NCBI GenBank assembly: GCA_021773815.1
Contig: JAJFJS010000102.1
Span: 1-42,888, forward strand
Reading direction: 5' to 3'
From: Gammaproteobacteria bacterium
GTDB taxonomy: Bacteria; Pseudomonadota; Gammaproteobacteria; Steroidobacterales; GCA-2729495
Length of the DNA: 42,888 bases
In this document: positions 2,512 to 38,862 of the stretch, piece by piece
How the letters are laid out: the number at the start of each line of letters is the position of its first letter
How positions within the stretch are numbered: position 1 is the first letter of the stretch
Notes under the pieces: model-generated
What the model was told of the DNA's origin: nothing
Seen by the model: only the letters and a program-made list of their open reading frames with translations
Database searches by the model: none
Translations under genes and position numbers: made by a program

Positions 2512-3933
2512 CTATTCTTCGGACGCCTCTTCGAGCTCGCTCGGCGGTGCGGCGGGCGCATCCGGCGGTTGCTTTGCGCTGGGCGCCGGCTCAGCAGTCA
2601 GCGGGACGAGTTCTGCATTCCAGTCGAGCGACAGTCCGGTGGGATCCGTCGGCGGTCCGGCCGTCTCGATGCCGATCCGGAACGCGGCAAAGCCCGGCAT
2701 CACGACCTGGTTGAGCGCCATGCCGAGGATCCGGCCCTTCTCTGGTGAATACATCAGGTTCTGTTCATTGGTGATCGGGTCGGTGACCGTGCCGAGCACG
2801 TCACCCGGCGCGACTTCCTGACCCAGCCGCACGACCGAAAACAGGATGCCGCCATGATCGGCACGGACCCAGGTTGATTCGTAAATTACCGGCGCCGGCG
2901 GGGCGAGCAACTGCACCCGGTGCAGCATATCCAGCGTATTGAGGAGCCGGAACACGCCATTGACGCCCTGGGTGACCTTCTTGGTTTGCAGGCGCAACGG
3001 TTCGCCGGCCTCGAGCGTGATGCTCGGAATGCCGGCATCGGTGGCCGCGCGCCGCAGCGTGCCCGGCGCGGCAACACTGTGCAGCACCGCGATGCTGCCG
3101 AAGCCGAGCGTCAGTTCTTTGATCCGCGAATAACGCAGGTCGGCTCTGAGTTGCGGCAGGTTCGTGCGGTAAAACGACCCGGTGTGCAGGTCGACGAGTG
3201 CGTCACAGCGGCGAATGATTTCCTCGAACAGCGAATAGGCAATGCGTGCGGCCGAGCTGCCCAACGGATTGCCGGGAAAATAACGGTTCAGGTCACGCCG
3301 ATCCGGCAGATAGCGGGAGCCGCGCCGGAAGCCCTGCAGGTTGACGATCGGCACGCCGATCACCGCACCGCTGAGTTTTTCCGGGTCCAGGTCATGGAGT
3401 ACGCGGCGCACCATTTCGATGCCGTTCAGCTCGTCGCCGTGTATCGCGGCCGTCAGGCACAGCGTCGGGCCTTGCTGGCGCCCGTTGACGACGAGCACCG
3501 GCGTTTCGGTCGACACGCCCTCGAAGATCTCGCTTGCGGACCACATGAGTCTTTGTGACGTGCCCGGCGGCACGGCCTGCCCGAGCAGCACGAGATCGCC
3601 GCCATTATCCGGGCTGTCATCTGCGCGGTCATCGTCTCCGTCAGCGGGCGGCGCCGCTGCGGGCATCGGCAGGGCCGGGGTCGGGGTATCGAAGGCCGGT
3701 GCTGCGGGCACTGGTGCCGGCGCGGCGGGTAATTCGTTGGTCTCGACCGGGGCCGGAGTCGGTGACTCGGTCTGTACCGCGGGTTCGGACTCGGGCGGCG
3801 GGGTCGGGACTTGCCGGGCGCGCAACGCCCGGGATGCCGGTGAGGGGTCGCATCCCGCCAACAGCAGGGTGAGCAGGCACGCGGCCGTGATTCGGGCATG
3901 CTGCGGAAGGTAACGTGGCGCGCTCGTGGGCAT
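2512..3933 (-). CDS. M14-type succinylglutamate desuccinylase/aspartoacylase-family lipoprotein
   Basis: A predicted 473-residue zinc amidohydrolase of the AstE/AspA (M14) family; its substrate is unknown. The start at 3933 is preferred over in-frame upstream starts because it gives a lipoprotein signal peptide with lipobox LLAGC (C28). A long Pro/Ala/Glu-rich linker (about 35-115) separates the anchor from the catalytic domain. Zinc ligands are H165 and E168 in HGDE plus H250 in DLHTG; E308 in LEAGEP fits the catalytic base. The C-terminal half contains a biotinyl-like beta region (about 345-425), as in related M14 proteins, and an acidic tail. No Asp follows lipid Cys-1, only DPS, where an Asp at +2 would argue for inner-membrane retention. 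That is inference. Upstream lies an unusual structured leader (3995-4082). Confidence 0.75.
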   Translation of the reverse strand: MPTSAPRYLPQHARITAACLLTLLLAGCDPSPASRALRARQVPTPPPESEPAVQTESPTPAPVETNELPAAPAPVPAAPAFDTPTPALPMPAAAPPADGDDDRADDSPDNGGDLVLLGQAVPPGTSQRLMWSASEIFEGVSTETPVLVVNGRQQGPTLCLTAAIHGDELNGIEMVRRVLHDLDPEKLSGAVIGVPIVNLQGFRRGSRYLPDRRDLNRYFPGNPLGSSAARIAYSLFEEIIRRCDALVDLHTGSFYRTNLPQLRADLRYSRIKELTLGFGSIAVLHSVAAPGTLRRAATDAGIPSITLEAGEPLRLQTKKVTQGVNGVFRLLNTLDMLHRVQLLAPPAPVIYESTWVRADHGGILFSVVRLGQEVAPGDVLGTVTDPITNEQNLMYSPEKGRILGMALNQVVMPGFAAFRIGIETAGPPTDPTGLSLDWNAELVPLTAEPAPSAKQPPDAPAAPPSELEEASEE

Positions 3934-19644: not shown

Positions 19645-20685
19645 ATGGCTGTCGATATCGCTCAGTTGCTGACATTTTCCGTTAAAAACAACGCGTCGGA
19701 TCTGCATCTGTCGTCCGGCGTGCCGCCGATGATTCGGGTCGACGGCGACGTCAAGCGCATCAACATGCCCCCGCTGACGCACAAAGACGTGCACAGCATG
19801 ATATACGACATCATGAACGACAAGCAGCGGAAGGACTTCGAGGAGTTCTTCGAGACCGACTTTTCGTTCGAAATTCCAAAGCTGGCGCGCTTTCGCGTCA
19901 ACGCCTTCCACCAGGCACGCGGCGCCGGGGCGGTCTTCCGTACGATTCCGTCCGAGATCCTGACGCTCGAGGACCTGATGGCTCCGGCCATCTTCAAGGA
20001 CATTGCGATGTATCCCCGCGGGATCGTCCTCGTGACCGGCCCGACCGGCTCGGGCAAATCGACGACGCTGGCCGCGATGGTCGATTACGTCAACGACAAC
20101 AAGCCCGACCATATTCTGACGATCGAGGACCCGATCGAGTTCGTGCACGAGAGCAAGCGCTCGCTGATCAACCAGCGCGAGGTGCATCGGGATACGCTGG
20201 GGTTTGCCCAGGCACTGCGTTCGGCGCTGCGCGAGGATCCCGACGTCGTACTCGTCGGCGAGATGCGTGATCTTGAGACAATCCGGCTCGCGCTGACGGC
20301 GGCCGAGACCGGCCACCTCGTTTTCGGCACATTGCACACCAGTTCGGCGGCCAAGACGATCGACCGTGTTGTCGACGTGTTCCCGGCGGCCGAAAAGGAA
20401 ATGGTTCGCTCGATGCTGTCCGAGTCGCTGCGGGCGGTCATTTCCCAGACGCTGCTCAAGCGTATTGGTGGCGGCCGCGTCGCGGCCCACGAGATCATGA
20501 TCGGCACGGCGGCGATCAGGAACCTGATCCGCGAGGGCAAGATTGCGCAGATGTACTCGGCGATCCAGACCGGGCACTCGGAAGGCATGCAAACGCTCGA
20601 CCAGAATCTTACCGAGTTGATGGCCAAGGGCCTTATCAACAAGGAAGAGGCACGGTTTCGGGCCGTCAACAAGGAGAATTTCTAG
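19645..20685 (+). CDS. pilT: Type IV pilus retraction ATPase PilT
   Basis: A hexameric cytoplasmic ATPase that depolymerises the type IV pilus and drives twitching. The 346-residue product matches P. aeruginosa PilT (344). Walker A is GPTGSGKST (132-140, K138); then come the Asp-box EDPIEF, the Walker B region ALREDPDVVLVGEMRD, the His-box GHLVFGTLHTSSAA and the C-terminal AIRNLIREGK motif needed for retraction. The N-terminal PAS-like domain contains ASDLHLS and FRVNAFHQ. GGGG lies nine bases before the ATG. First of three tandem PilT/PilU family genes on this strand. Confidence 0.97.
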   Translation: MAVDIAQLLTFSVKNNASDLHLSSGVPPMIRVDGDVKRINMPPLTHKDVHSMIYDIMNDKQRKDFEEFFETDFSFEIPKLARFRVNAFHQARGAGAVFRTIPSEILTLEDLMAPAIFKDIAMYPRGIVLVTGPTGSGKSTTLAAMVDYVNDNKPDHILTIEDPIEFVHESKRSLINQREVHRDTLGFAQALRSALREDPDVVLVGEMRDLETIRLALTAAETGHLVFGTLHTSSAAKTIDRVVDVFPAAEKEMVRSMLSESLRAVISQTLLKRIGGGRVAAHEIMIGTAAIRNLIREGKIAQMYSAIQTGHSEGMQTLDQNLTELMAKGLINKEEARFRAVNKENF

Positions 20686-20728: not shown

Positions 20729-21889
20729 ATGGAACGCGATCAGGCAACACGGCTCATGCAAGGGCTGCTCAAGAAGATGGTGGCCAAGAACGGCTCCGAC
20801 CTGTTTATCACGGCCGGGTTTCCGCCGGCGATCAAGGTCGACGGTGAGATTCATCGGGCGACCGAGGAGCCGCTGTCGCCGGACCAGAGTGCGGTCATCG
20901 TCCGCGCCATCATGAACGACAAGCAGGCGCGCGAGTTCGATGCGACGAAAGAGTGCAATTTCGCCATCAGTCCGCAGGGCATCGGCCGCTTCCGCGTCAG
21001 CGCCTACATTCAGCAGGGGGCCGTTGCGGCCGTGCTGCGACAGATCATCACGAAAATTCCGACCGTCGACGAACTCGAACTGCCGGACACGCTCAAGGAG
21101 ATCGCGATGACGAAGCGCGGTCTCGTGATCCTCGTCGGTGCGACCGGCTCGGGTAAGTCCACGACGCTGGCCGCGATGATCGGTCATCGCAACGACAACT
21201 CGCGCGGCCATATCGTCACGATCGAGGATCCGGTCGAGTATGTGCATCCGCACAAGCGTTGTGTGGTCACGCAGCGCGAGGTCGGCGTCGACACCGAATC
21301 GTGGTTCGCGGCGCTGAAGAACACACTGCGCCAGGCGCCCGATGTCATCATGATCGGCGAGATCCGGGATCGCGAGACGATGGAGTACGGGATTCAGTTT
21401 GCCGAAACCGGCCACCTGTGTCTCGCGACGTTGCACGCGAACAGCGCCAACCAGGCGCTCGACCGGGTGATCAACTTCTTCCCCGAGGAGAAGCGTGATC
21501 AGTTGCTGATGGACATGTCATTGAACGTTCAGGCATTGATTTCCCAGCGACTGTTGCCGCGCGAGGGCGGCACGGGCCGTATCGCCGCGATGGAGATCAT
21601 GCTGAAGTCGCCGCTGATCTCCGACCTGATCTTCAAGGGCGATGTTGCCAAGATCAAGGAAGTCATGGCGAAGAGCAACCGACTCGGCATGAAGACTTTC
21701 GACCAGGATCTGTACGATCTTTACGAAGCTCACAAGATCAGCTACGAGGACGCGATGCGCAATGCGGATTCGAAGAACGAGCTGCGCCTGCGCATCAAGC
21801 TCGAGGGTAAACGGGACAAGGATGATGCGGAGGAGCGGGCCAAGGGGCTGTCCCTGGCCGATGAAGAAGAGGGAACGCACTTTGGTTAA
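20729..21889 (+). CDS. pilU: Type IV pilus retraction ATPase PilU
   Basis: A PilT paralogue that supports forced retraction together with PilT. The 386-residue product matches P. aeruginosa PilU (382) and has the long charged C-terminal tail (KLEGKRDKDDAEERAKGLS) typical of it. Walker A is GATGSGKST with K143; Walker B region TLRQAPDVIMIGEIRD; His-box GHLCLATLHANSANQA. The PilU-like N-terminal GSDLFITAGFPPAIKVDG and ECNFAIS are present. AAGGA lies about nine bases upstream of the ATG. It follows pilT by 43 bp. Confidence 0.95.
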   Translation: MERDQATRLMQGLLKKMVAKNGSDLFITAGFPPAIKVDGEIHRATEEPLSPDQSAVIVRAIMNDKQAREFDATKECNFAISPQGIGRFRVSAYIQQGAVAAVLRQIITKIPTVDELELPDTLKEIAMTKRGLVILVGATGSGKSTTLAAMIGHRNDNSRGHIVTIEDPVEYVHPHKRCVVTQREVGVDTESWFAALKNTLRQAPDVIMIGEIRDRETMEYGIQFAETGHLCLATLHANSANQALDRVINFFPEEKRDQLLMDMSLNVQALISQRLLPREGGTGRIAAMEIMLKSPLISDLIFKGDVAKIKEVMAKSNRLGMKTFDQDLYDLYEAHKISYEDAMRNADSKNELRLRIKLEGKRDKDDAEERAKGLSLADEEEGTHFG

Positions 21890-29123: not shown

Positions 29124-29360
29124 TCACTTCCTCCACGGTACGTGTGTCTCAATTCTGTCGTAGACCTGCTGAAATATCACCTGCGGGCGGGTATTATCCA
29201 GTACGCACGAGCGTGGGTTATCGGGGGGTTCCATCGATGGGTTGGCGGTGGTTCCGGCACGTGCGGGGTCAGCGGGGGCTACTGCCGGGCGTCAATCCAC
29301 GGCGCGAATCGACATCGGCACTGTCTTGGTGTATGGGTTACATTATGTTAAAGGCTTGTG

Positions 29361-29780
29361 ATGACGGAAGCGACTGAGGTGCCGGCCGTGTTGGATGCTG
29401 CGCCGAATCTCCGCGGGCTCAAGATACTGGTCATTGACGACAGTAAAACGATCCGGCGCACGGCCGAAACCCTGCTGTCGAAAGAGGGTTGCACCGTGTA
29501 TACGGCCATCGACGGGTTCGATGCGCTGTCCAAGATTGCCGATCATCAGCCGGACGTTATTTTCGTCGATATCATGATGCCGCGACTCGACGGATATCAG
29601 ACCTGCTCGCTGATCAAGCACAACAAGACCTTTCGCAGCACGCCGGTCATCATGCTGTCCAGCAAGGACGGGTTGTTTGATCGGGCCCGCGGGCGAATCG
29701 TCGGCTCCGAGCATTACCTGACCAAGCCTTTTACGAAAGATGAATTGCTGGGCGCCATTGCGGCCCAGGTGTCTCGATAA
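29361..29780 (+). CDS. pilG: Twitching motility response regulator PilG
   Basis: A 139-residue single-domain CheY-like receiver of the Pil-Chp system, which promotes pilus extension and polarity in P. aeruginosa. An N-terminal extension of about 20 residues precedes the receiver, as in PilG. The acid pocket lies in VIDDSKT, phospho-acceptor D70 is in VDIMMPRLDG, then MLSSKDG and the conserved Lys in YLTKPFTK. I prefer the ATG at 29361 over the GTG one codon earlier because AAGG (29351-29354) is spaced six bases from it. First gene of the operon. Confidence 0.95.
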   Translation: MTEATEVPAVLDAAPNLRGLKILVIDDSKTIRRTAETLLSKEGCTVYTAIDGFDALSKIADHQPDVIFVDIMMPRLDGYQTCSLIKHNKTFRSTPVIMLSSKDGLFDRARGRIVGSEHYLTKPFTKDELLGAIAAQVSR

Positions 29781-29797
29781 CACACGGGAGTGGAATG

Positions 29798-30160
29798 ATG
29801 GCGCTCGTGTTAATTGTTGACGACTCGCCGACGGAGCAGCATGTCTTTTCGACGGCGCTGGAAAAGCACGGTTTCGAAACGGTCGTGGCGAGCGACGGCG
29901 AAGAGGCGATTTCGATCGCCGAATCGCGTTTGCCCGACCTGATTCTGATGGATATCGTCATGCCCGGCATGAACGGTTTTCAGGCGACTCGCCAGCTGGC
30001 GAAGAACCCGATGACCGCCGCGATACCGGTGGTCATGATTACGACGAAGGATCAGGAGACGGACAAGGTCTGGGGTCTGCGTCAGGGCGCCGTTGAATAT
30101 CTGATGAAGCCGGTCGACGATTCCGCGCTCGTCGCCGCCGTGAAGGCGAATCTGAACTGA
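29798..30160 (+). CDS. pilH: Twitching motility response regulator PilH
   Basis: A 120-residue single receiver domain thought to act as phosphate sink and promote pilus retraction. MALVLIVDDSPTEQ opens the domain, phospho-acceptor D52 is in LMDIVMPGMNGF, and MITTKDQETDKVWGLRQGA is a strong PilH signature; Lys in YLMKPVD. Of two adjacent ATGs, the second (29798) matches the PilH start and lies seven bases after GGGAG. The TGA overlaps the pilI ATG (TGATG). Confidence 0.95.
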   Translation: MALVLIVDDSPTEQHVFSTALEKHGFETVVASDGEEAISIAESRLPDLILMDIVMPGMNGFQATRQLAKNPMTAAIPVVMITTKDQETDKVWGLRQGAVEYLMKPVDDSALVAAVKANLN

Positions 30161-30729
30161 TGGCAGGCGCCGCGAGCACCGATCTGCGCGCGTTGCGGGA
30201 CCGGCCGTTCGAACTGTTGTGTGAACTCGAACGACGCAGCAAGGTCGCGCTGGCCGGCGCTTCGGGTCGCGATGTCGACGTCGAAGAGTGGGTCGGTATC
30301 GGCTTCCGCCTCGATGAGGAACAGTTCATCGTCGCGCGCGAGAATATTCGCGAGGTATTGATGGTGCCGGCGTTGATTACCCGCGTGCCGGGCGCCAGGG
30401 AATGGGTTCGCGGGCTCGCCAATGTCCGCGGGCACCTGCTGCCGATTATCGATCTGAAGGCGTTCCTCGGTGCGGGGCGGTTCGTCGGGCAGCGTGATGC
30501 GCGGGTCCTCGTGATCCAGGGCGCGGAACTGTCGGTGGGACTGATCGTCGATGAGGTGTTCGGCTTTCGTCGCTTCCTCGACAGCGAGCGGTCCGGGCAG
30601 GCGCCGCAGACTCTCGTCCATTGTGATCGTTTTCTGGACGGCGCCTATGAACGCGGCGTCGAGAACTGGCCGATTTTCAGCATCGAGCGCCTCGAGCGCA
30701 GCGAAGATTTTCAGCGCGCCGCGGCATGA
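30160..30729 (+). CDS. pilI: CheW-like adaptor PilI
   Basis: A 189-residue CheW-fold adaptor linking receptor PilJ to kinase ChpA. The CheW domain (about 43-185) contains GFRLDEEQFIVARENIREVL, the VPGAREWVRGLANVRGHLLPIIDL core and LIVDEVFGFRRF. The N-terminal 40 residues are a helical extension also seen in PilI. Its ATG overlaps the pilH stop by one base. Confidence 0.93.
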   Translation: MAGAASTDLRALRDRPFELLCELERRSKVALAGASGRDVDVEEWVGIGFRLDEEQFIVARENIREVLMVPALITRVPGAREWVRGLANVRGHLLPIIDLKAFLGAGRFVGQRDARVLVIQGAELSVGLIVDEVFGFRRFLDSERSGQAPQTLVHCDRFLDGAYERGVENWPIFSIERLERSEDFQRAAA

Positions 30730-30798
30730 CCGAATCCCGGTGGCCGAAATCCGGTGAGCACGTCGATACGTGACGCGCATAAAGAAAGGGTACGACAG

Positions 30799-32862
30799 AT
30801 GACGAATAAAGCCAGTGGAGCAAACCTGATGCCGTGGATGGCGGCCATCGGCGCACTCCTTCTTATCGGTGTCCTGACATTGTTGTATACCGCCGAGCGC
30901 GGCGGCGGCACATCGGTACCTGCCGCCGGCTCGGCGGCGACCGTACAGACGGCGCGTACCGGGCTGCTGGCGGCCCGAGCGGCGCTGGCTTCCGCGGACC
31001 CGGTGATGCCCGACAGCGTCGTCAAGGCGCGTCGGGCGCTGGCCGGCGTGAACACGCAGGGATTGTCGGCCGATCAGGTCAAGGCCGTGCGCAACCTGTC
31101 GTCCGGTCTCGAAACGATCGAAAACAACTGGCCGGCTCGCGAAGCCCTGAATTTTTCCACCTCCGAACTCGATTTCCTGTTGCCGCAGCTCGAAGATGCG
31201 TCCAATGAACTGGAGCAGGCTATCGTTATCCAGGGCAAGCCGGTCGTCGTTGCGCAGCTCGAGCGTTTGCGCCTGCTGTCCAGCGGCTTGCGGGACAATG
31301 TGCGGAGCCTCGTCAATGGCTTGGCCGCGCCGGCCGACGTCGCGCAGGAGATGCTGGACCGGGAGATGGCGCTCGCACAGATCGTGCGCGGATTCGAAAA
31401 CGGCGATCCGAGTCTCGGCCTGCGTGCCGTATCGGATGGCCAGTCGACTGCTGCGCTGGCGGCGCTGGCCAACAGTGCCACGCGTGTCAGTGACAACGTT
31501 CGTAACGTGCTCGCCGTCACCGACGGGCTCGCCGCGCTGACCGCCGTCGGCGGCCAGCTCAATGCGCTGGATGCCGCGCTGGGCAGCGGTGCGGCAGTCA
31601 CGGCCGGTCGTGCTGCGCCGGCGGGCTGGCAGGCCAATGCGGTGCCGGCGTTGACGGCGCTGGCGCTGCTGGTATATCTCGTGATGGCGGGACTCTGGTA
31701 TCGGCAGCGGGATCTGCGCAAGGCCGCGGATCGGCAGACCGAACAGACAGATATGAACCAGGCGGCGATCATGCGCCTGCTCGATGAGCTCGGCAGTCTC
31801 GCCGACGGCGACCTGACCGTCTCGGCCACGGTGACCGAGGATATTACCGGCGCGATCGCGGACTCGATCAATTTCGCCATCGAGGCGTTGCGTGAGCTGG
31901 TTGTTACGCTGAACGAAGGCGCGATTCGCGTCGACGGCGCGGCGCGGCAGGCTGACATGACGGCACAGCAGCTCGATGACGCAACGACGGAGCAATCCAG
32001 CCAGATCGAGGATGCTTCGCAGGCCATCCTGTCGATGGCCTCGTCGATCGAAGAAATTTCCGGGAATGCCGAACGTTCGTCTGACGTCGCCAGGCATTCC
32101 GTTGATGTCGCCCACAAGGGTGGCGATGCGGTGCGTCGGACCATCGAAGGCATGAATACGATTCGCGAGACGATTCAGGACACGGCCAAGCGCATCAAGC
32201 GACTCGGCGAGAGCTCGCAGGAAATCGGCAATATCGTCGAACTCATCAATGATATTGCCGATCAAACCAATATTCTGGCGTTGAACGCGTCGATTCAGGC
32301 GTCGATGGCCGGCGAGGCAGGCCGAGGATTCGCCGTCGTTGCCGACGAGGTGCAGCGACTCGCGGAGCGTTCCGCGAACGCGACCAAGCAGATCGAAGTG
32401 CTCGTGCGCACGATCCAGGCCGATACGAACGAGGCCGTCGTGTCCATGGAGAGAAGTACGACGGACGTCATCGGCGGCGCCCTGCTGGCCGAGAATGCCG
32501 GCGCGGCGCTCGAAGAGATCGAGCAGGTGTCCAACCAGATCGCGTCACTGGTGCAGAATATTTCCGGCTCCGCGCGGGGCCAGTCTGCGGCCGCGGCTGC
32601 GGTAACGAGAAACGTCGATATGCTGCAGGAGATTAATTCACGCACCGAGAGCAGCGCCAAGGCCACGACGGTATCCATTCGTGAACTCGCCGAACTGGCG
32701 GCACAGCTGCGCGAATCGGTCGCCGGGTTCCGCTTGCCCGCAGATGCAATGGATCACGGCCATGACATGACCGGCGAGCTTGATGCCGTTGATGTGTTAA
32801 TCGAGGATCCGCTCGACAGGCAGCCCGAAAACGCCGTAATTGCCGATCGCCAGACCGCCTGA
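30799..32862 (+). CDS. pilJ: Methyl-accepting chemoreceptor PilJ
   Basis: The transmembrane receptor of the Pil-Chp system. The 687-residue product compares with 682 in P. aeruginosa. One transmembrane segment at about 9-30, a periplasmic helical region of PilJ type (about 31-275), a second span near 278-300 ([20 protein letters not shown]), HAMP-like linker, then the cytoplasmic signalling coiled coil with hairpin tip at 503-524 ([19 protein letters not shown]). I chose the ATG at 30799 because GAAAGGG lies eight bases upstream; a GTG 45 bp earlier is less likely. No pilK methyltransferase gene follows, unlike Pseudomonas. Confidence 0.94.
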
Positions 32863-32896: not shown

Positions 32897-35278
32897 ATGC
32901 AAGAACTAGTTTCCGAATCCCTGCACCTCGTCGGCGAAGAACTCGCGGTCACATTTAACGACGTTCGCTCGGCGCTCGAACTCTATGCTGACGGCGGCGC
33001 CGGTCCGCAGACGCTCGAGCGCTGCCTGAAGCTGCTGCATTCGGCAAACGGCGTGCTACGGATGACCGAGACCTACGGCGCGAGTTTGCTGACCGAGGAA
33101 ATGGAGGAAACCCTTCGTTACCTGGAGCGGGCGCGCCGACAGGACGGTGGATCTGACGAAGCTCTGGAAGCCCTGAGCCGTGCCGCCGTTCAATTGCCGG
33201 CTTACGTGGAACTGATTATTAACGGCGGCCGCGATATTCCGCTGGTGTTGCTGCCGTTGCTGAACGATCTGCGCGCGGCGCGTGGCAAACCGTTGTTGTC
33301 GGAAAGCACGCTGCTATTGCTCAATATCGCGCCCAGCGACGATCGAATTTCCGATGTTGGTGCCCACGTGCCCAGCGGTGAAGACATCGTCGTGCTGTGC
33401 CGGGAACTTCGGCCGCGATTCCAGCTCGCACTGCTCGGCTGGATCAAGGGCGCCGACGTTCCGGAAAATCTGAAAAAGATCGGCCAGGTGGCCGGGCGAC
33501 TCGAGCGGGCCGCGGCTGAGCCGGCCGTCTATCAATTGTGGTGGGTGATCTCGGGGGTCATCGAGGCCCTGCTCGACGGCGGTCTGGAGTCCAGCGTGTC
33601 GCTGAAGCGGCTGATGGGGCAGGCCGATCGTGAGATGAAGCGGTTGCCGGTCGTCGGGGTCCGGCAATACACGGGGCAGCCGCCGACCGATCTGATCAAT
33701 AATTTCCTGTACTACATTGCGCGCGCGACGACGCCCGGCGAGCGGGTAAAGGCGGTGCGCGCCGCCTTCGATCTGTCCGACCTCGTGCCCGGCAATGCCC
33801 AGGTCGACGATGCACGCGCCAGCCTCGGTGCGCCCAGCACGAAGTTGATGCAGACGGTTGCGCAGGCGATCCGGGATGATCTGGCGCGCGTCAAAGACGT
33901 GCTCGATATCTACGTGCGCACCGGCATGGAACATGTCGAGGAACTCGTTCCGCAGATCGAGCTGCTCAAAAAGATCGGCGATACGCTCGGGGTGCTCGGT
34001 CTCGGCGAACTCCGGGAGACCATCCAGGCCAAGCGCGGCGACCTGCAGGCGATCATCGACGCCGGGGAGAACGTCGAGGAAGCGGCGCTGATCGAGATGG
34101 CCTCGGCGCTGCTCAGCGTCGAGGATCGTATCGAAGCGGATTTGTTCAACCTCGTCCGGCCCGAGGGCAGTGAAGAGCGCGCCGGTCCCGGCGGTGAGGA
34201 CAAGGATTACGGCGAGGTCACGCAGGCCGTGATGCGTGAATGCGTCGTCAACCTGGCTCGCATCAAGGATGCCGTGGCGCAGATCCTCGAGCATCCCCGC
34301 GACGGCGCGCAGCTCGACGCGGTGCCGGCGCACCTGAGCGGCATCATCGCCGGGCTGATGATTCTCGAAAAGGATGCCGCCGTTTCCGTCGTCGAGGAAA
34401 TCGGCGCAATGATCGATCGACTCGTGCAAACGGATCGTCAGCCCGTCGATACCCGCCGTTTCGATCTGCTTGCCGATGCCATCGTCAGTCTCGAGTATTA
34501 CATGGAGACGATGCAGGCCGGTCGAAAAGAACCGCTGTATATGCTCGATAACGCGCGCGACTGCCTCGAGGCGTTGCGCGAGGTCGAGCGGCGCGCGGAG
34601 CCGGATGTCACGGCCGTCGAATCGTCGGGCATGACCGCGACGATGCAGATTCCTGAATATGAGCCGACCGTCGTCGCCTCGCGCACGCAGATCCTGCCGG
34701 GGCTATCGGTTCTGTCGCCGGCCTCGGAGCACGGCGTGGATCCCGAGTTGCTGGAACTGTTTATCGAGGAAGCGCGGGAAGAGATCGACTCGATCAACAA
34801 GCATTTCCCCGCCTGGGCCCAGGACGAGGCCAATCACGAGGCGCTGATCACGGTTCGCCGGTCGTTTCATACGCTCAAGGGCAGCGGCCGTATGGTGGGC
34901 GCGGAACGGATCGGTGAATACGGCTGGTGCATCGAGGATCTGCTTAATCGCCTGATCAACCGGACGATCGAGACGCAGGCCGACTGTGTCGATTTCCTGC
35001 GTCGGGCGATCGAAGCATTGCCCGAGTTGCTTGAGCAGCTCGAAGTTGGTGAGGCGCCGAAGGCGGATATTGAAGGACTCATGGCGGAGGCGGCCGCATT
35101 CCTGCAGCCGCAGGGCGCGCCGGCCGTCGGTACGGATGAATCGGCCGAAGTTGCGTCGTCGGCTGAGGCGGCCGCGAGCGCGACGGAGGTTGTCGCGGCG
35201 GACGAGGCGCCGGCAACGTCGGAATCGGAATCGGAATCGGATGCGGACTCGGAGGCCGAGACCGATTACATGTTGTAA
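32897..35278 (+). CDS. chpA: ChpA N-terminal half: Hpt-domain protein
   Basis: A 793-residue protein equal to the N-terminal part of ChpA, the CheA-type kinase of the pilus chemosensory system. The first domain is Hpt-like (H48 in LLHSANGVLRMTETYGASLL); a long helical region with degenerate Hpt-like units follows (about 130-590). A canonical Hpt domain lies at about 615-715 (DPELLELFIEEAREEI; H658 in SFHTLKGSGRMVGA). The tail is acidic and low complexity (Ala/Glu, then Ser-Glu repeats), ending DYML before a TAA stop. The next coding frame, nine bases later, is in the same reading frame and continues ChpA. The start at 32897 is the best ATG, with a weak ribosome site. Together with the next gene it would make a split histidine kinase. 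Confidence 0.85.
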   Translation: MQELVSESLHLVGEELAVTFNDVRSALELYADGGAGPQTLERCLKLLHSANGVLRMTETYGASLLTEEMEETLRYLERARRQDGGSDEALEALSRAAVQLPAYVELIINGGRDIPLVLLPLLNDLRAARGKPLLSESTLLLLNIAPSDDRISDVGAHVPSGEDIVVLCRELRPRFQLALLGWIKGADVPENLKKIGQVAGRLERAAAEPAVYQLWWVISGVIEALLDGGLESSVSLKRLMGQADREMKRLPVVGVRQYTGQPPTDLINNFLYYIARATTPGERVKAVRAAFDLSDLVPGNAQVDDARASLGAPSTKLMQTVAQAIRDDLARVKDVLDIYVRTGMEHVEELVPQIELLKKIGDTLGVLGLGELRETIQAKRGDLQAIIDAGENVEEAALIEMASALLSVEDRIEADLFNLVRPEGSEERAGPGGEDKDYGEVTQAVMRECVVNLARIKDAVAQILEHPRDGAQLDAVPAHLSGIIAGLMILEKDAAVSVVEEIGAMIDRLVQTDRQPVDTRRFDLLADAIVSLEYYMETMQAGRKEPLYMLDNARDCLEALREVERRAEPDVTAVESSGMTATMQIPEYEPTVVASRTQILPGLSVLSPASEHGVDPELLELFIEEAREEIDSINKHFPAWAQDEANHEALITVRRSFHTLKGSGRMVGAERIGEYGWCIEDLLNRLINRTIETQADCVDFLRRAIEALPELLEQLEVGEAPKADIEGLMAEAAAFLQPQGAPAVGTDESAEVASSAEAAASATEVVAADEAPATSESESESDADSEAETDYML

Positions 35279-35287
35279 ACGGAGGCC

Positions 35288-38200
35288 GTGGCCGCGGCCG
35301 GGATGGATCCGGTGTTACTCGAAATCCTGACCAAGGAAACGCGAGCCCATCTGGAGGTCATCGAGGCGTTTATCGCCGAATGCGCGGACGGCGTGGCGCC
35401 GTACGTCGTAACCGAAGAACTGTACCGGGCCTGCCACACGCTCCACGGCAGCGTCACGATGGCCAATGCCGAGGCCGCGGCTGAGGTCACGCAACCCCTG
35501 AACAGCGCGATTCGTCGCGCCTACGATCACGGGCTGCCGATCGATGAAAACGCCGTCGCCGCCTGTGCAGATGCCGCGTCGGCGATGGTCGGGATCCTCG
35601 CCTACCTGTCCGCTGAAGCCGATGCGCCGCCCGATACCGATGCATTGCAGGTCGCACTGTGGGCGCTCGACGAGCGAGTCGAGGCGCAAGTGGCCGAGGC
35701 GGAGACGCGGGCCGACGAGACGCTGCCGCCGGTCAGCGAGGAAGACATCGTTGAGGAAGATGCACGGGCCGCCGCCGCGACGGCGCCCGCATTCGACCCG
35801 GAAATCGCGGAGATCTTTGCCGAAGAGGCGGCGGAGATACTCGAAGGTGCCGATGCGGCTCTGAAGAAACGGGCGGACGGCGAACTTCCGGCGTCGGCGC
35901 TTGAGGAGTTGCAGCGATTCCTGCATACGCTCAAGGGCGGCGCGCGTATGGCCGGGCTCATGGCCATCGGTGATTTCAGTCATGATCTCGAGACGCTGCT
36001 GGTGCGCATGGCCGGTGGCACGCTGGCGCAGGATGCCGGGCGGCTGAGCGTGCTGCAGACATCCGTCGATGAACTGCATCGCGTGTGCGAGCAGATCGAG
36101 CTGGGGACACTCGTCGAGCCGACCGCGGATTGCCGGCGGCAGTTAATGGCGTCGCTCGGCCTCGACGTCGACGAGGCGGTGATCGAAGCCGTGGCGGACA
36201 CGGTCGACGATACGGCCTCGGTGTCGGAAGCTGAAGCCGAAGCCGAGGCGGAACTCGAAGCCGAACCCGAAGCTGAGCACGAAGCCGAACTCGAAGCCGA
36301 ATTCGAACCGGAAGCCGAGCACGAAGCCGAGCACGAAGCCGGGATCGAAGCGGCAGCGGACGCCGAAACGGAAACCGGGGTCGAAGCCGCGGAAATCGAT
36401 CAGGCGGAACCGGTCGTCCCGCCGATCGTTCGCGCGCCGCGTCCGGTGGCCGAGCAGCTCGGCCAGTTGGCGCGCGAGCTCGAAGAACCGGCCCGACCCG
36501 GCGCCGGTGACCTGTCGTCGCTGGTGCCCGGCGTGCTGCGCGAACCGATCGTGCGCGAGCGCCGCGAGTTTGCGCGGGTCGATCCGGTAATGCTGGAGAA
36601 CCTGCTCAACAATGCCGGCGAAGTCAGTATCTTCCATTCCCGGCTGAGCCAGCAGCTCGGCCAGATCCAGTTCAACCTCGAGGAGCTCGGTCAGACCGTG
36701 GTCCGGCTGCGCGAGCAGCTGCGCAACATGGAGATGGCAACCGAGGCCCAGATTATTTACCAGCATCAGTCGGATGCGGGCAGCGACGCCGCCTTTGATC
36801 CGCTGAGCCTGGAGCGGTACTCGAAGATCCAGCAGTTGTCGCGCGCGCTGGCCGAGACGACCAGCGACGTCGCCAGCATCAAAGACCTGTTGCAGAACCA
36901 GACGGCCGATACCGAGGCGTTGCTCGTGCAACAGGCGCGCACGGCCGCCGAACTGCAGGACGGCCTGATGCGCACGCGCATGGTGCCGTTCGAGCAGCAC
37001 ACCGGACGACTGTCGCGGCTGGTCCGGCAGATGGGCGGCGAGCACGACAAGCGCGCTGAACTCGTCGTGCAGGGCAGCGGCGATATCGATCGCCAGGTGC
37101 TGGAGAAAATGGTCCCTGCGCTCGAACATATGATCCGCAACGCGGTGATCCACGGCATCGAATCGCCGGATGAACGCGCGGCGGCCGGCAAGCCGGACGT
37201 CGGGCGGGTCTCGATCAACCTGCGGCGGGAAGGCTCGCAGATCGTCATGGAGCTTGCCGACGACGGTCGCGGCATGGATATCGCGTCGATTCGTCGAAAA
37301 GCGACGGACCTTGGATTGATTGCCGAAGGTACCGAGCCGACCGACGAGGAAGTGCTGCAATTCGTGTTGCGTTCCGGCTTTTCGACGGCCGATCGGGTGA
37401 CGCATGCCGCCGGGCGCGGCGTCGGCATGGACGTCGTTGCGAGTGAAATCACCAAGCTCGGCGGCACGCTGCATATCGAGACGGAGGCTGGGGCCGGCAC
37501 GACATTTACCGTGTTCCTGCCGTATACGCTGGCGGTGACGCAGGCGCTGATCGTGCGTGCGGAAACGGAGCTATATGCCATCCCGCTGCCGACTGTCGAA
37601 GGGATTATCCGTATCTCGCGAGCGGAGTTCGACGCGAAGCGGGCCGAAGACAACCCGGTTATCGAATACGGCGGACGGAATTACCAGCTGCGCCATCTCG
37701 GGCCGTATCTCGATCTCGGGCCGGCATCGATTGCCGCTGAACAGGACCGGGTCTCGATCATCCTCGTGCAGGCCGGGGAGAATTCGACGGCGCTCGTCAC
37801 CGACGAGATGCTCGACAGCCGTGAAGTCGTCGTCAAGCCGGTCGGCGGTCAGCTGGCGTCGATACGTGGCATATCGGGGGCGACGATTCTCGGCGACGGA
37901 CAGATTGTCGTCATTCTCGATGTCGGCGCACTGGTGCGCATGGCGCCGAGGCCGGCGACCGACCGGCAGCGCCCGCTCAAGACGGAACCGGAGCAGCCGC
38001 TCGCGCTGGTCGTCGACGACTCGATAACCATGCGTCGCGTCACCCAGCGCCTGCTGGAGAGAAACAATATGCGCGTCGTGACGGCCAAGGATGGTGTCGA
38101 GGCCGTCGGGATGCTGCAGGATCACCGGCCGGACATCATCCTGCTGGACATCGAGATGCCGCGTATGGACGGTTACGAGTTTGCCTCGCACGTGCGCAAT

Positions 38201-38380
38201 AACCCGGATACGGCGCAGATTCCGATTATCATGATCACGTCGCGCGTCAGCGAGAACCACAAGGCGCGCGCGATCGAACTCGGTGTCAACGACTATCTCG
38301 GCAAACCCTACCAGGAGAGCGTGCTGCTCGAGGCGGTCCGGCAGCTTCTCGACCCCCGGCACGCGCGGCGCCTGTCGTAA
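35288..38380 (+). CDS. chpA: ChpA C-terminal half: Hpt-CheA kinase-CheW-receiver protein
   Basis: A 1030-residue hybrid kinase. Two Hpt domains (H50 in CHTLHGS; H213 in FLHTLKGGARMAG), then a Glu/Ala-rich repeat linker (about 314-351), a CheA dimerisation region (about 430-560), ATPase domain with N-box N618 in HMIRNAVIHGIES, LADDGRGMD and GRGVGMDVV, a CheW domain (about 755-890) and a receiver with D954 in LLDIEMPRMDGY. The GTG at 35288 is only two bases after GGAGG; ATG 35303 (MDPVLLEIL) is an alternative. It is in the same frame as the upstream gene, separated by TAA and three sense codons, so the ancestral gene was one piece. All motifs needed for kinase activity are present. Confidence 0.88.
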   Translation: MAAAGMDPVLLEILTKETRAHLEVIEAFIAECADGVAPYVVTEELYRACHTLHGSVTMANAEAAAEVTQPLNSAIRRAYDHGLPIDENAVAACADAASAMVGILAYLSAEADAPPDTDALQVALWALDERVEAQVAEAETRADETLPPVSEEDIVEEDARAAAATAPAFDPEIAEIFAEEAAEILEGADAALKKRADGELPASALEELQRFLHTLKGGARMAGLMAIGDFSHDLETLLVRMAGGTLAQDAGRLSVLQTSVDELHRVCEQIELGTLVEPTADCRRQLMASLGLDVDEAVIEAVADTVDDTASVSEAEAEAEAELEAEPEAEHEAELEAEFEPEAEHEAEHEAGIEAAADAETETGVEAAEIDQAEPVVPPIVRAPRPVAEQLGQLARELEEPARPGAGDLSSLVPGVLREPIVRERREFARVDPVMLENLLNNAGEVSIFHSRLSQQLGQIQFNLEELGQTVVRLREQLRNMEMATEAQIIYQHQSDAGSDAAFDPLSLERYSKIQQLSRALAETTSDVASIKDLLQNQTADTEALLVQQARTAAELQDGLMRTRMVPFEQHTGRLSRLVRQMGGEHDKRAELVVQGSGDIDRQVLEKMVPALEHMIRNAVIHGIESPDERAAAGKPDVGRVSINLRREGSQIVMELADDGRGMDIASIRRKATDLGLIAEGTEPTDEEVLQFVLRSGFSTADRVTHAAGRGVGMDVVASEITKLGGTLHIETEAGAGTTFTVFLPYTLAVTQALIVRAETELYAIPLPTVEGIIRISRAEFDAKRAEDNPVIEYGGRNYQLRHLGPYLDLGPASIAAEQDRVSIILVQAGENSTALVTDEMLDSREVVVKPVGGQLASIRGISGATILGDGQIVVILDVGALVRMAPRPATDRQRPLKTEPEQPLALVVDDSITMRRVTQRLLERNNMRVVTAKDGVEAVGMLQDHRPDIILLDIEMPRMDGYEFASHVRNNPDTAQIPIIMITSRVSENHKARAIELGVNDYLGKPYQESVLLEAVRQLLDPRHARRLS
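36227..36340 (+). repeat. Glu-Ala coding repeat in the ChpA linker
   Basis: Imperfect tandem GAAGCCGAA-type hexamers and nonamers encode a Glu/Ala-rich linker (residues about 314-351) between the second Hpt domain and the kinase core. Such tracts expand and contract easily and give a flexible or helical acidic spacer. Confidence 0.8.
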
Positions 38381-38391
38381 TCGGATCCACG

Positions 38392-38862
38392 ATGGAAATT
38401 GCCACAGAAGAAATCTATACGTTGCTCGTACCGTTGCATCAGGCACGCCTGATCGTGCCGCGTGTCTGCGTCGCCGAGATTATTCGCTACTCGCCGCCGC
38501 AGGGTCGCGCCGGCGATATGCCCGACTGGTTTCGTGGCTTTGTGGCCTGGAACGATCGCCGGGTGCCGATCGTGCAGGTCGAGACGTTGTGCGGCCTGCC
38601 CGCGTCGGATCCGGGCGGGCGCACGCGCATTGCGGTCTTCAACGGGCTGTCCGGGCACGAGGAGTCCATCGTTTTCGGCGTGCTGACCGAGGGGTTTCCG
38701 CAATTATTGCGCGTGAATCGCAGCGTCATGGAGTTACATGATGAGCATGAATGGCCCGATGACGGGCCGGTAATCTGCCAGATCCGGATGATCAATGAGT
38801 ATCCGCTGATTCCCGATCTCGAACGGATCGAGTCGCTCGTCCGTGAGCAGATCGCCGCCTGA
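38392..38862 (+). CDS. chpC: CheW-like protein ChpC
   Basis: A 156-residue CheW-fold protein, the last gene of the pil-chp operon, 11 bp after the kinase. Core motifs: EIYTLLVPLHQARLIVPRVCVAEIIRY, WFRGFVAWNDRRVPIVQVETLCG, then IVFGVLTEGFPQLLRV. ChpC in Pseudomonas is an alternative adaptor to PilI. No chpB (CheB methylesterase) is found before it. It is followed by a 291-bp intergenic region holding a hairpin repeat element. Confidence 0.88.
   Translation: MEIATEEIYTLLVPLHQARLIVPRVCVAEIIRYSPPQGRAGDMPDWFRGFVAWNDRRVPIVQVETLCGLPASDPGGRTRIAVFNGLSGHEESIVFGVLTEGFPQLLRVNRSVMELHDEHEWPDDGPVICQIRMINEYPLIPDLERIESLVREQIAA

Follow-up and report, generated by a model that had tools for sequence, protein, structure and literature searches.

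ChpA of P. aeruginosa displays at least nine Xpt domains together with a receiver domain, as described in the portion of PMC12632253 used here. Synechocystis 6803 encodes the cheA homolog of its tax3/pilG cluster as two genes, pilL-N (hik36, slr0073) and pilL-C (hik43, slr0322), and Hik36-Hik43 interacted with Rre6, according to the relevant part of PMC7656254. Similarly, bipartite CheA proteins with the Hpt carried on a separate gene, as well as CheA3/CheA4 of Rhodobacter sphaeroides, are described in an extract of PMC10542144. Split ChpA/PilL kinases are already known. CheA short forms are made from an internal start, and split histidine kinases are, by its title, the subject of a modelling paper (PMC3591291). 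Among literature titles, none was found on a stop-interrupted or fissioned chpA of the present type, nor under split pilL.

Organization of the interrupted chpA locus

The window, i.e. the entire 42,888-nt stretch of DNA analysed, corresponds to contig C5 of G000, a 98.95% complete genome of 3.87 Mb in 149 contigs, and contains a Pil-Chp cluster composed of two response regulators, a CheW protein, a chemoreceptor, chpA and a further CheW protein (Table 1). Positions 19645-20685 and 20729-21889 of the window encode two type II/IV secretion ATPases in tandem, which by domain and arrangement are pilT/pilU-like; their presence on the chpA contig makes it likely that the pilus machinery is present. 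ChpA displays the domain order Hpt, HATPase, CheW and REC and is flanked by two response regulators, a CheW protein and a chemoreceptor (pilG/H/I/J), both of which are characteristic of Tfp-class CheA (ChpA), while the single polypeptide of that class is interrupted here by a TAA. The chpA frame is open from end to end except for this one codon, number 794, and resolves into two ORFs. The first opens at ATG 32897, from whose first residue relatives align, or at the alternative in-frame TTG 32840, and ends at 35278, while the second runs from GTG 35288 to 38380. The first-pass annotation had claimed that a single in-frame TAA splits chpA, that both halves share one frame and that the TAA and Thr-Glu-Ala alone precede the GTG, which is borne out by the codons of the junction (GAT TAC ATG TTG TAA ACG GAG GCC GTG GCC GCG GCC GGG ATG GAT CCG) and by the rest of the frame being open on both sides. 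Both halves are homologous to single proteins of relatives, and such a layout, in which one stop interrupts a full-length frame and both flanks match the same protein of relatives, is no chance ORF pattern.

The placement of the break in a linker between Hpt domains, also proposed in that annotation, agrees with the domain positions in Table 1. In the 72 scorable relatives this linker ranges from 22 to 101 residues and consists of 23.5% Ala, 16.2% Glu and 13.2% Pro; it is hypervariable, so that the stop codon has no alignable counterpart in relatives. Past the stop, the linker composition and the frame persist up to the conserved DPVLL start. A structure predicted from 37 sequences for residues 1-151 of the second half has a mean pLDDT of 93.3 and contains five helices, of which the first spans residues 8-33 counted from GTG 35288, with ATG 35303 corresponding to residue 6, two residues earlier. 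On this model, a product initiated at GTG 35288 or ATG 35303 would retain the whole Hpt domain. The domain positions and the predicted fold of the downstream Hpt support the suggestion that the linker is tolerant of a break. A repeated element around the stop was rejected, as the 25-base junction is single-copy in the genome when as many as 3 mismatches are allowed. An inserted AT-rich patch was likewise dropped, as four-codon stretches equally GC-poor occur in the linkers of 24 of the 72 relatives; 16-mers as AT-rich as that of the junction are scarce in relatives' linkers (3 of 7674).

Table 1 Features of the chpA locus in the window and of split or N-only ChpA-type genes in other families. 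Residue numbers refer to the respective half of chpA.
Feature	Position	Strand	Remarks
pilG-like response regulator	29358..29780	+	TAA at end; name inferred from domain and order
pilH-like response regulator	29795..30160	+	Pfam domains; name inferred from domain and order
pilI-like CheW protein	30160..30729	+	Pfam domains; name inferred from domain and order
pilJ-like chemoreceptor, MCP signalling domain	30754..32862	+	name inferred from domain and order
chpA, both halves	32897 (ATG)..38380 (TAA)	+	stop codon 38378-38380
chpA first half: N-terminal region and first canonical Hpt	32897..35278	+	793 aa, TAA-terminated
Hpt of chpA first half, HTLKGS motif	34745..35020	+	Pfam PF01627, residues 617-708
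Glu/Ala/Ser linker, hypervariable	35102..35302	+	67 codons including the stop
in-frame TAA of chpA	35276..35278	+	
GGAGG, SD-like, poorly spaced	35281..35285	+	by-product of ACG GAG GCC (Glu-Ala codons)
chpA second half: two Hpt, HATPase, CheW, REC	35288..38380	+	candidate starts GTG 35288, ATG 35303
Hpt just past the break, HTLHGS motif	35315..35584	+	residues 10-99 of second half, scanned as separate piece
Hpt, HTLKGG motif	35801..36079	+	residues 172-264 of second half
HATPase_c (kinase) domain	37118..37528	+	residues 611-747 of second half
CheW domain of chpA	37541..37939	+	residues 752-884 of second half
receiver (REC) domain of chpA	38006..38341	+	residues 907-1018 of second half
second CheW-like protein, chpC-like by position	38392..38862	+	downstream of chpA; name inferred
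f47 two-gene loci	L169, L290-L294, L296, L297, L299, L302, L306, L308		G676 and others
f116 N-only genes	L311:2-2029, L312:3-2207, L321:949-3210		

Candidate restart signals downstream of the stop

The GGAGG that follows the stop is positioned 2 nt from GTG 35288 and 17 nt from ATG 35303, and with these spacings neither start lies at the usual Shine-Dalgarno distance. GGAGG occurs seven times in chpA, and this copy alone has an in-frame start within 11 nt. It had been suggested that the GGAGG and the GTG right after the stop could allow re-initiation. Both are present and a restart is conceivable, but the spacing is unsuitable and ATG 35303 is the better placed start, because Met occupies the start of the downstream Hpt in 55 of 80 relatives (Ile in 10, Val in 2, Leu and Pro in 1 each, 11 unscorable) and the first helix begins two residues on. 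Of the 55 relatives with the domain-start Met, only 6 have an SD-like motif upstream of it, and L080, the closest relative, displays Ile at that position. A conserved internal start was rejected on these two grounds. Thus, with the Met common and the motif mostly missing in relatives, the SD looks incidental, and the GGAGG appears not to be a conserved feature. The starts of pilI and pilJ, judged by eye, are likewise without a strong SD, so that a restart in chpA is possible, yet not specially provided for.

The chpA gene in related genomes

The N half of chpA was found in 34 of the 40 genomes searched, its own genome included. Among the other 33, a single open frame of 1753-2578 aa is present in 30, and in the remaining three (G025, G034, G038) the frame runs off the contig end. 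The only other genome of the same genus with chpA, G001, contains an intact gene of 1815 aa at 64% identity, and G002 (80% complete) and G003 (78% complete), of the same genus, gave no chpA match. Both halves lie in one ORF in 79 of 80 named loci of a second collection, which overlaps partly with the first genome set and may omit the window's own record. In L153 (5866-11261) an apparent frameshift lies between second-half residues 294 and 443, in a later linker, with overlapping ORFs in two frames. The order-wide search gave a match in 315 of 396 genomes; among the matches listed, frames below 1200 aa were those of G000, G190 and G324 alone, and the short frames of G190 and G324 are open at a contig edge.

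Every readable relative of the family and order (for the order, among the matches listed) has one gene across the linker, which does not support the possibility, raised in the first-pass annotation, of an established fission common to relatives. Separate ORFs for an Hpt-bearing N part and a kinase part are present, as in an established split ChpA/PilL, but related genomes do not share the two-gene layout. Within the family and order sampled, the stop is confined to one lineage, with open and homologous flanks. A sense codon in all close relatives had been named as grounds for discarding the split. In substance this is what is seen, since no stop occurs in their linker, which is too variable for an alignment of single codons.

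Across the class, 115 of 369 genomes were found to contain the N half, and 25 stretches were followed up, mostly short N-half frames although that of G583 is fairly long. Of these stretches 18 run to the contig end. The other seven include a whole gene in G583 (1677 aa), an apparent frameshift in G603, two genes in G676 and an N-like ORF in G693, besides G495, G710 and G658. In G658 (L166, contig C163) an N-region-plus-Hpt frame of 961 aa is terminated by a TAG, at 3372, in the equivalent linker; the contig ends 180 nt past the TAG, and a second ChpA frame of 2168 aa is located elsewhere in the genome. This frame counts against the privacy of the stop in the wider class. No other case of a stop at the equivalent linker followed by a kinase half was seen in the class survey. 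In G603 (L165:784-7346) chpA displays an apparent frameshift elsewhere in the gene, with overlapping ORFs in two frames. G693 (L168:5863-9805, minus strand) contains a 595-aa ChpA N-region-like ORF, then a 694-aa ORF weakly like the C-terminal part, and a second long ChpA frame (2418 aa) elsewhere in the genome. Contigs end inside chpA in G025, G034, G038, G471, G542, G692, G498, G601, G586, G557 and others, and since many drafts break inside this gene, a survey of split ChpA by ORF length alone would mislead.

In two other gammaproteobacterial families, ChpA-type genes occur that are apparently divided in two (f47) or N-only (f116). In f47 the C gene of G676 was matched in 42 of 42 genomes, the best match lying in a frame of 938-1455 aa in 39 of them and of 683 aa in G793; these counts omit G767 and G781, with weak best matches of 33-36% identity, and contig ends were checked in 20 loci only. 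At 12 of the 20 loci an N gene (514-568 aa, stop to stop) immediately precedes the C gene, and 10 of these 12 have a pilJ match before the N gene. At the other 8 the N gene was not found in the stretch, L295 and L305 being cut by the contig end. Many f47 genomes carry a second, more distant CheA-type match. The f47 split sits before the first canonical Hpt, earlier than the linker of the window. In f116 an N-region-plus-Hpt ORF ends just past the Hpt in 3 of 5 genomes (G495, G710, G800), with no adjoining kinase half in ~7 kb downstream (G495, G710) or in ~0.95 kb up to the contig end (G800). The ORFs of G495 and G710 begin at the contig edge, and both genomes also have a long ChpA frame. The f116 and f47 genes may be fissions, truncated paralogs or ancestral unfused states.

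Gene integrity in G000 was assessed against its relative G008, for which 0.72 Mb of the former (the window among it) and 1.2 Mb of the latter were used. Of the 204 best-per-locus pairs obtained, 14 were flagged and 139 intact, and 51 were excluded as partial. Run in the opposite direction as a control, the comparison yielded 200 pairs, with 10 flagged, 146 intact and 44 partial. On inspection, chpA displays the sole clear internal in-frame stop among the 153 G000 genes compared, none being seen in the other 152. The remaining flags in G000 were judged to be stops near alignment ends, antisense shadows, mixed-frame matches and one possible frame change. A single stop in 153 genes is nothing unusual and speaks against G000 being error-prone in general. 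A possible second interrupted gene lies at C149:20104-21894 (L228:104-1894, minus strand), where a 435-aa G008 ORF matches two neighbouring G000 ORFs in different frames, with no Pfam match for either.

Explanations of the split and comparison with known systems

Of the four options that the first-pass annotation set out without choosing, the best explanation, at a probability of roughly 0.55, is a nonsense codon of recent origin, private to this lineage, in a chpA that is otherwise intact. Translation would end at the TAA, releasing a 793-residue protein made of the N-terminal region and one Hpt, and some ribosomes would probably initiate again no more than 25 nt further on, at GTG 35288 or ATG 35303. 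The kinase half would thus probably still be made at some level, and by its composition (two Hpt, ATPase, CheW, REC) it would contain the components of a CheA-like kinase. As the stop falls in a fast-evolving linker, the lesion may be mild, and the linker composition and frame retained after the stop fit little elapsed time. From this we infer that the stop is recent, that translation restarts behind it and that the effect is mild, although an older split is conceivable, given that the closest relative with an intact gene shares only 64% identity.

A consensus or assembly error, with a sense codon and an undivided chpA in the actual genome, would account for a stop that is found in this genome alone within the family and order (among the matches listed for the order). 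Assemblies often break inside chpA, as illustrated by the 18 of 25 short or cut N-half frames at a contig end; in G192 a stretch of N lies close to the linker end, and by their titles the 80 named relatives are all metagenome bins. However, the frame is kept on both sides, so that a substitution or an in-frame change would be needed, and among assembly errors these are rarer than indels. Moreover, the stop is far from the contig ends (35 kb upstream, 7.6 kb downstream), and chpA alone has a clear internal stop among the genes compared. The lack of a general excess of such stops is still compatible with one wrong base, and an error is an unlikely source of the stop that nevertheless deserves consideration. 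Decoding of the TAA would offer a further route to a full-length ChpA in some molecules, by programmed or occasional read-through, and the frame kept through the stop would suit it. The same codon also terminates pilG and the second half of chpA, for which reason a general reading of TAA as sense is disfavoured. TAA followed by A is an efficient translation terminator, and a programmed read-through site would be expected to recur as a stop here in the readable relatives of the family and order, none of which has one; read-through is thus very improbable.

A young functional fission, in which the stop and a restart yield two stable polypeptides cooperating in trans as in other split CheA/PilL kinases, finds several points in its favour. 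The break lies between folded domains and leaves the downstream Hpt whole, and with Met the usual first residue of that Hpt (55 of 80 relatives) a start codon was at hand. Lone N-region-plus-Hpt genes end just after the same Hpt in f116, the N-half frame of G658 ends in the equivalent linker, the f47 N gene adjoins its kinase gene in 12 of 20 loci, and pilL is split in Synechocystis, going by the part of PMC7656254 considered. These N-only and two-gene ChpA-type genes elsewhere in the class, and the G658 stop, make a functional split at such a place plausible. In contrast, no readable relative in the family or order is split here (for the order, among the matches listed), the GGAGG is badly spaced for both candidate starts and the region still reads as a linker, with no evolved intergenic sequence. 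Furthermore, the f47 split occupies an earlier linker, the f116 genes have no adjoining kinase half in the stretch seen, and the G658 contig ends before any downstream half could show; as G658 is distant and its fragment ends with the contig, it leaves the odds of the readings unchanged. We therefore consider such a fission a tentative and, on balance, unlikely alternative. Rather doubtful, too, is its extended form, in which the TAA is fixed in the species and marks a fission at its start, a two-chain ChpA arising via restart at the pre-existing domain-start Met, with the N-terminal region and one Hpt acting in trans on the two-Hpt kinase chain. ChpA linkers would then be repeated fission sites, given the N-only chpA of f116 and G658 and the two-gene chpA of f47.

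If the TAA is a recent nonsense allele, the case is ordinary, its main lesson being that a single codon can make a large multi-Hpt kinase look split. Should both halves be produced, the locus would represent an early stage of kinase fission whose start codon was supplied by an existing domain-start Met, and it would bear on why ChpA has so many Hpt and on whether the N-terminal ones can act in trans. Most likely the locus displays a recent and private break, probably a tolerated one, rather than a new kind of protein.

The chpA of the window resembles ChpA/PilL of P. aeruginosa in encoding a multi-Hpt CheA-like kinase with CheW and a C-terminal REC beside pilG/H/I/J. It differs from that single polypeptide in being cut by a TAA and in displaying fewer recognised Hpt than the at least nine Xpt given in the cited part of PMC12632253. 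With CheA3/CheA4, as the available extract of PMC10542144 presents them, it shares the location of Hpt and kinase core on different proteins of one operon. The kinase protein of that pair, however, is without its own Hpt, whereas the second half of chpA keeps two and might work alone. The two-gene chpA of f47 is similar in that an N gene is followed in tandem by a kinase gene, usually after pilJ, but its split lies before the first canonical Hpt and is shared across the family, in contrast to the one genome here. Finally, the locus is similar to PilL-N/PilL-C of Synechocystis in that a ChpA-type kinase is divided into an Hpt part and a kinase part. In the portion of PMC7656254 drawn upon, the two pilL genes are far apart and form a studied pair, while the halves of the present chpA lie within 24 nt of each other, in one frame and in one genome.
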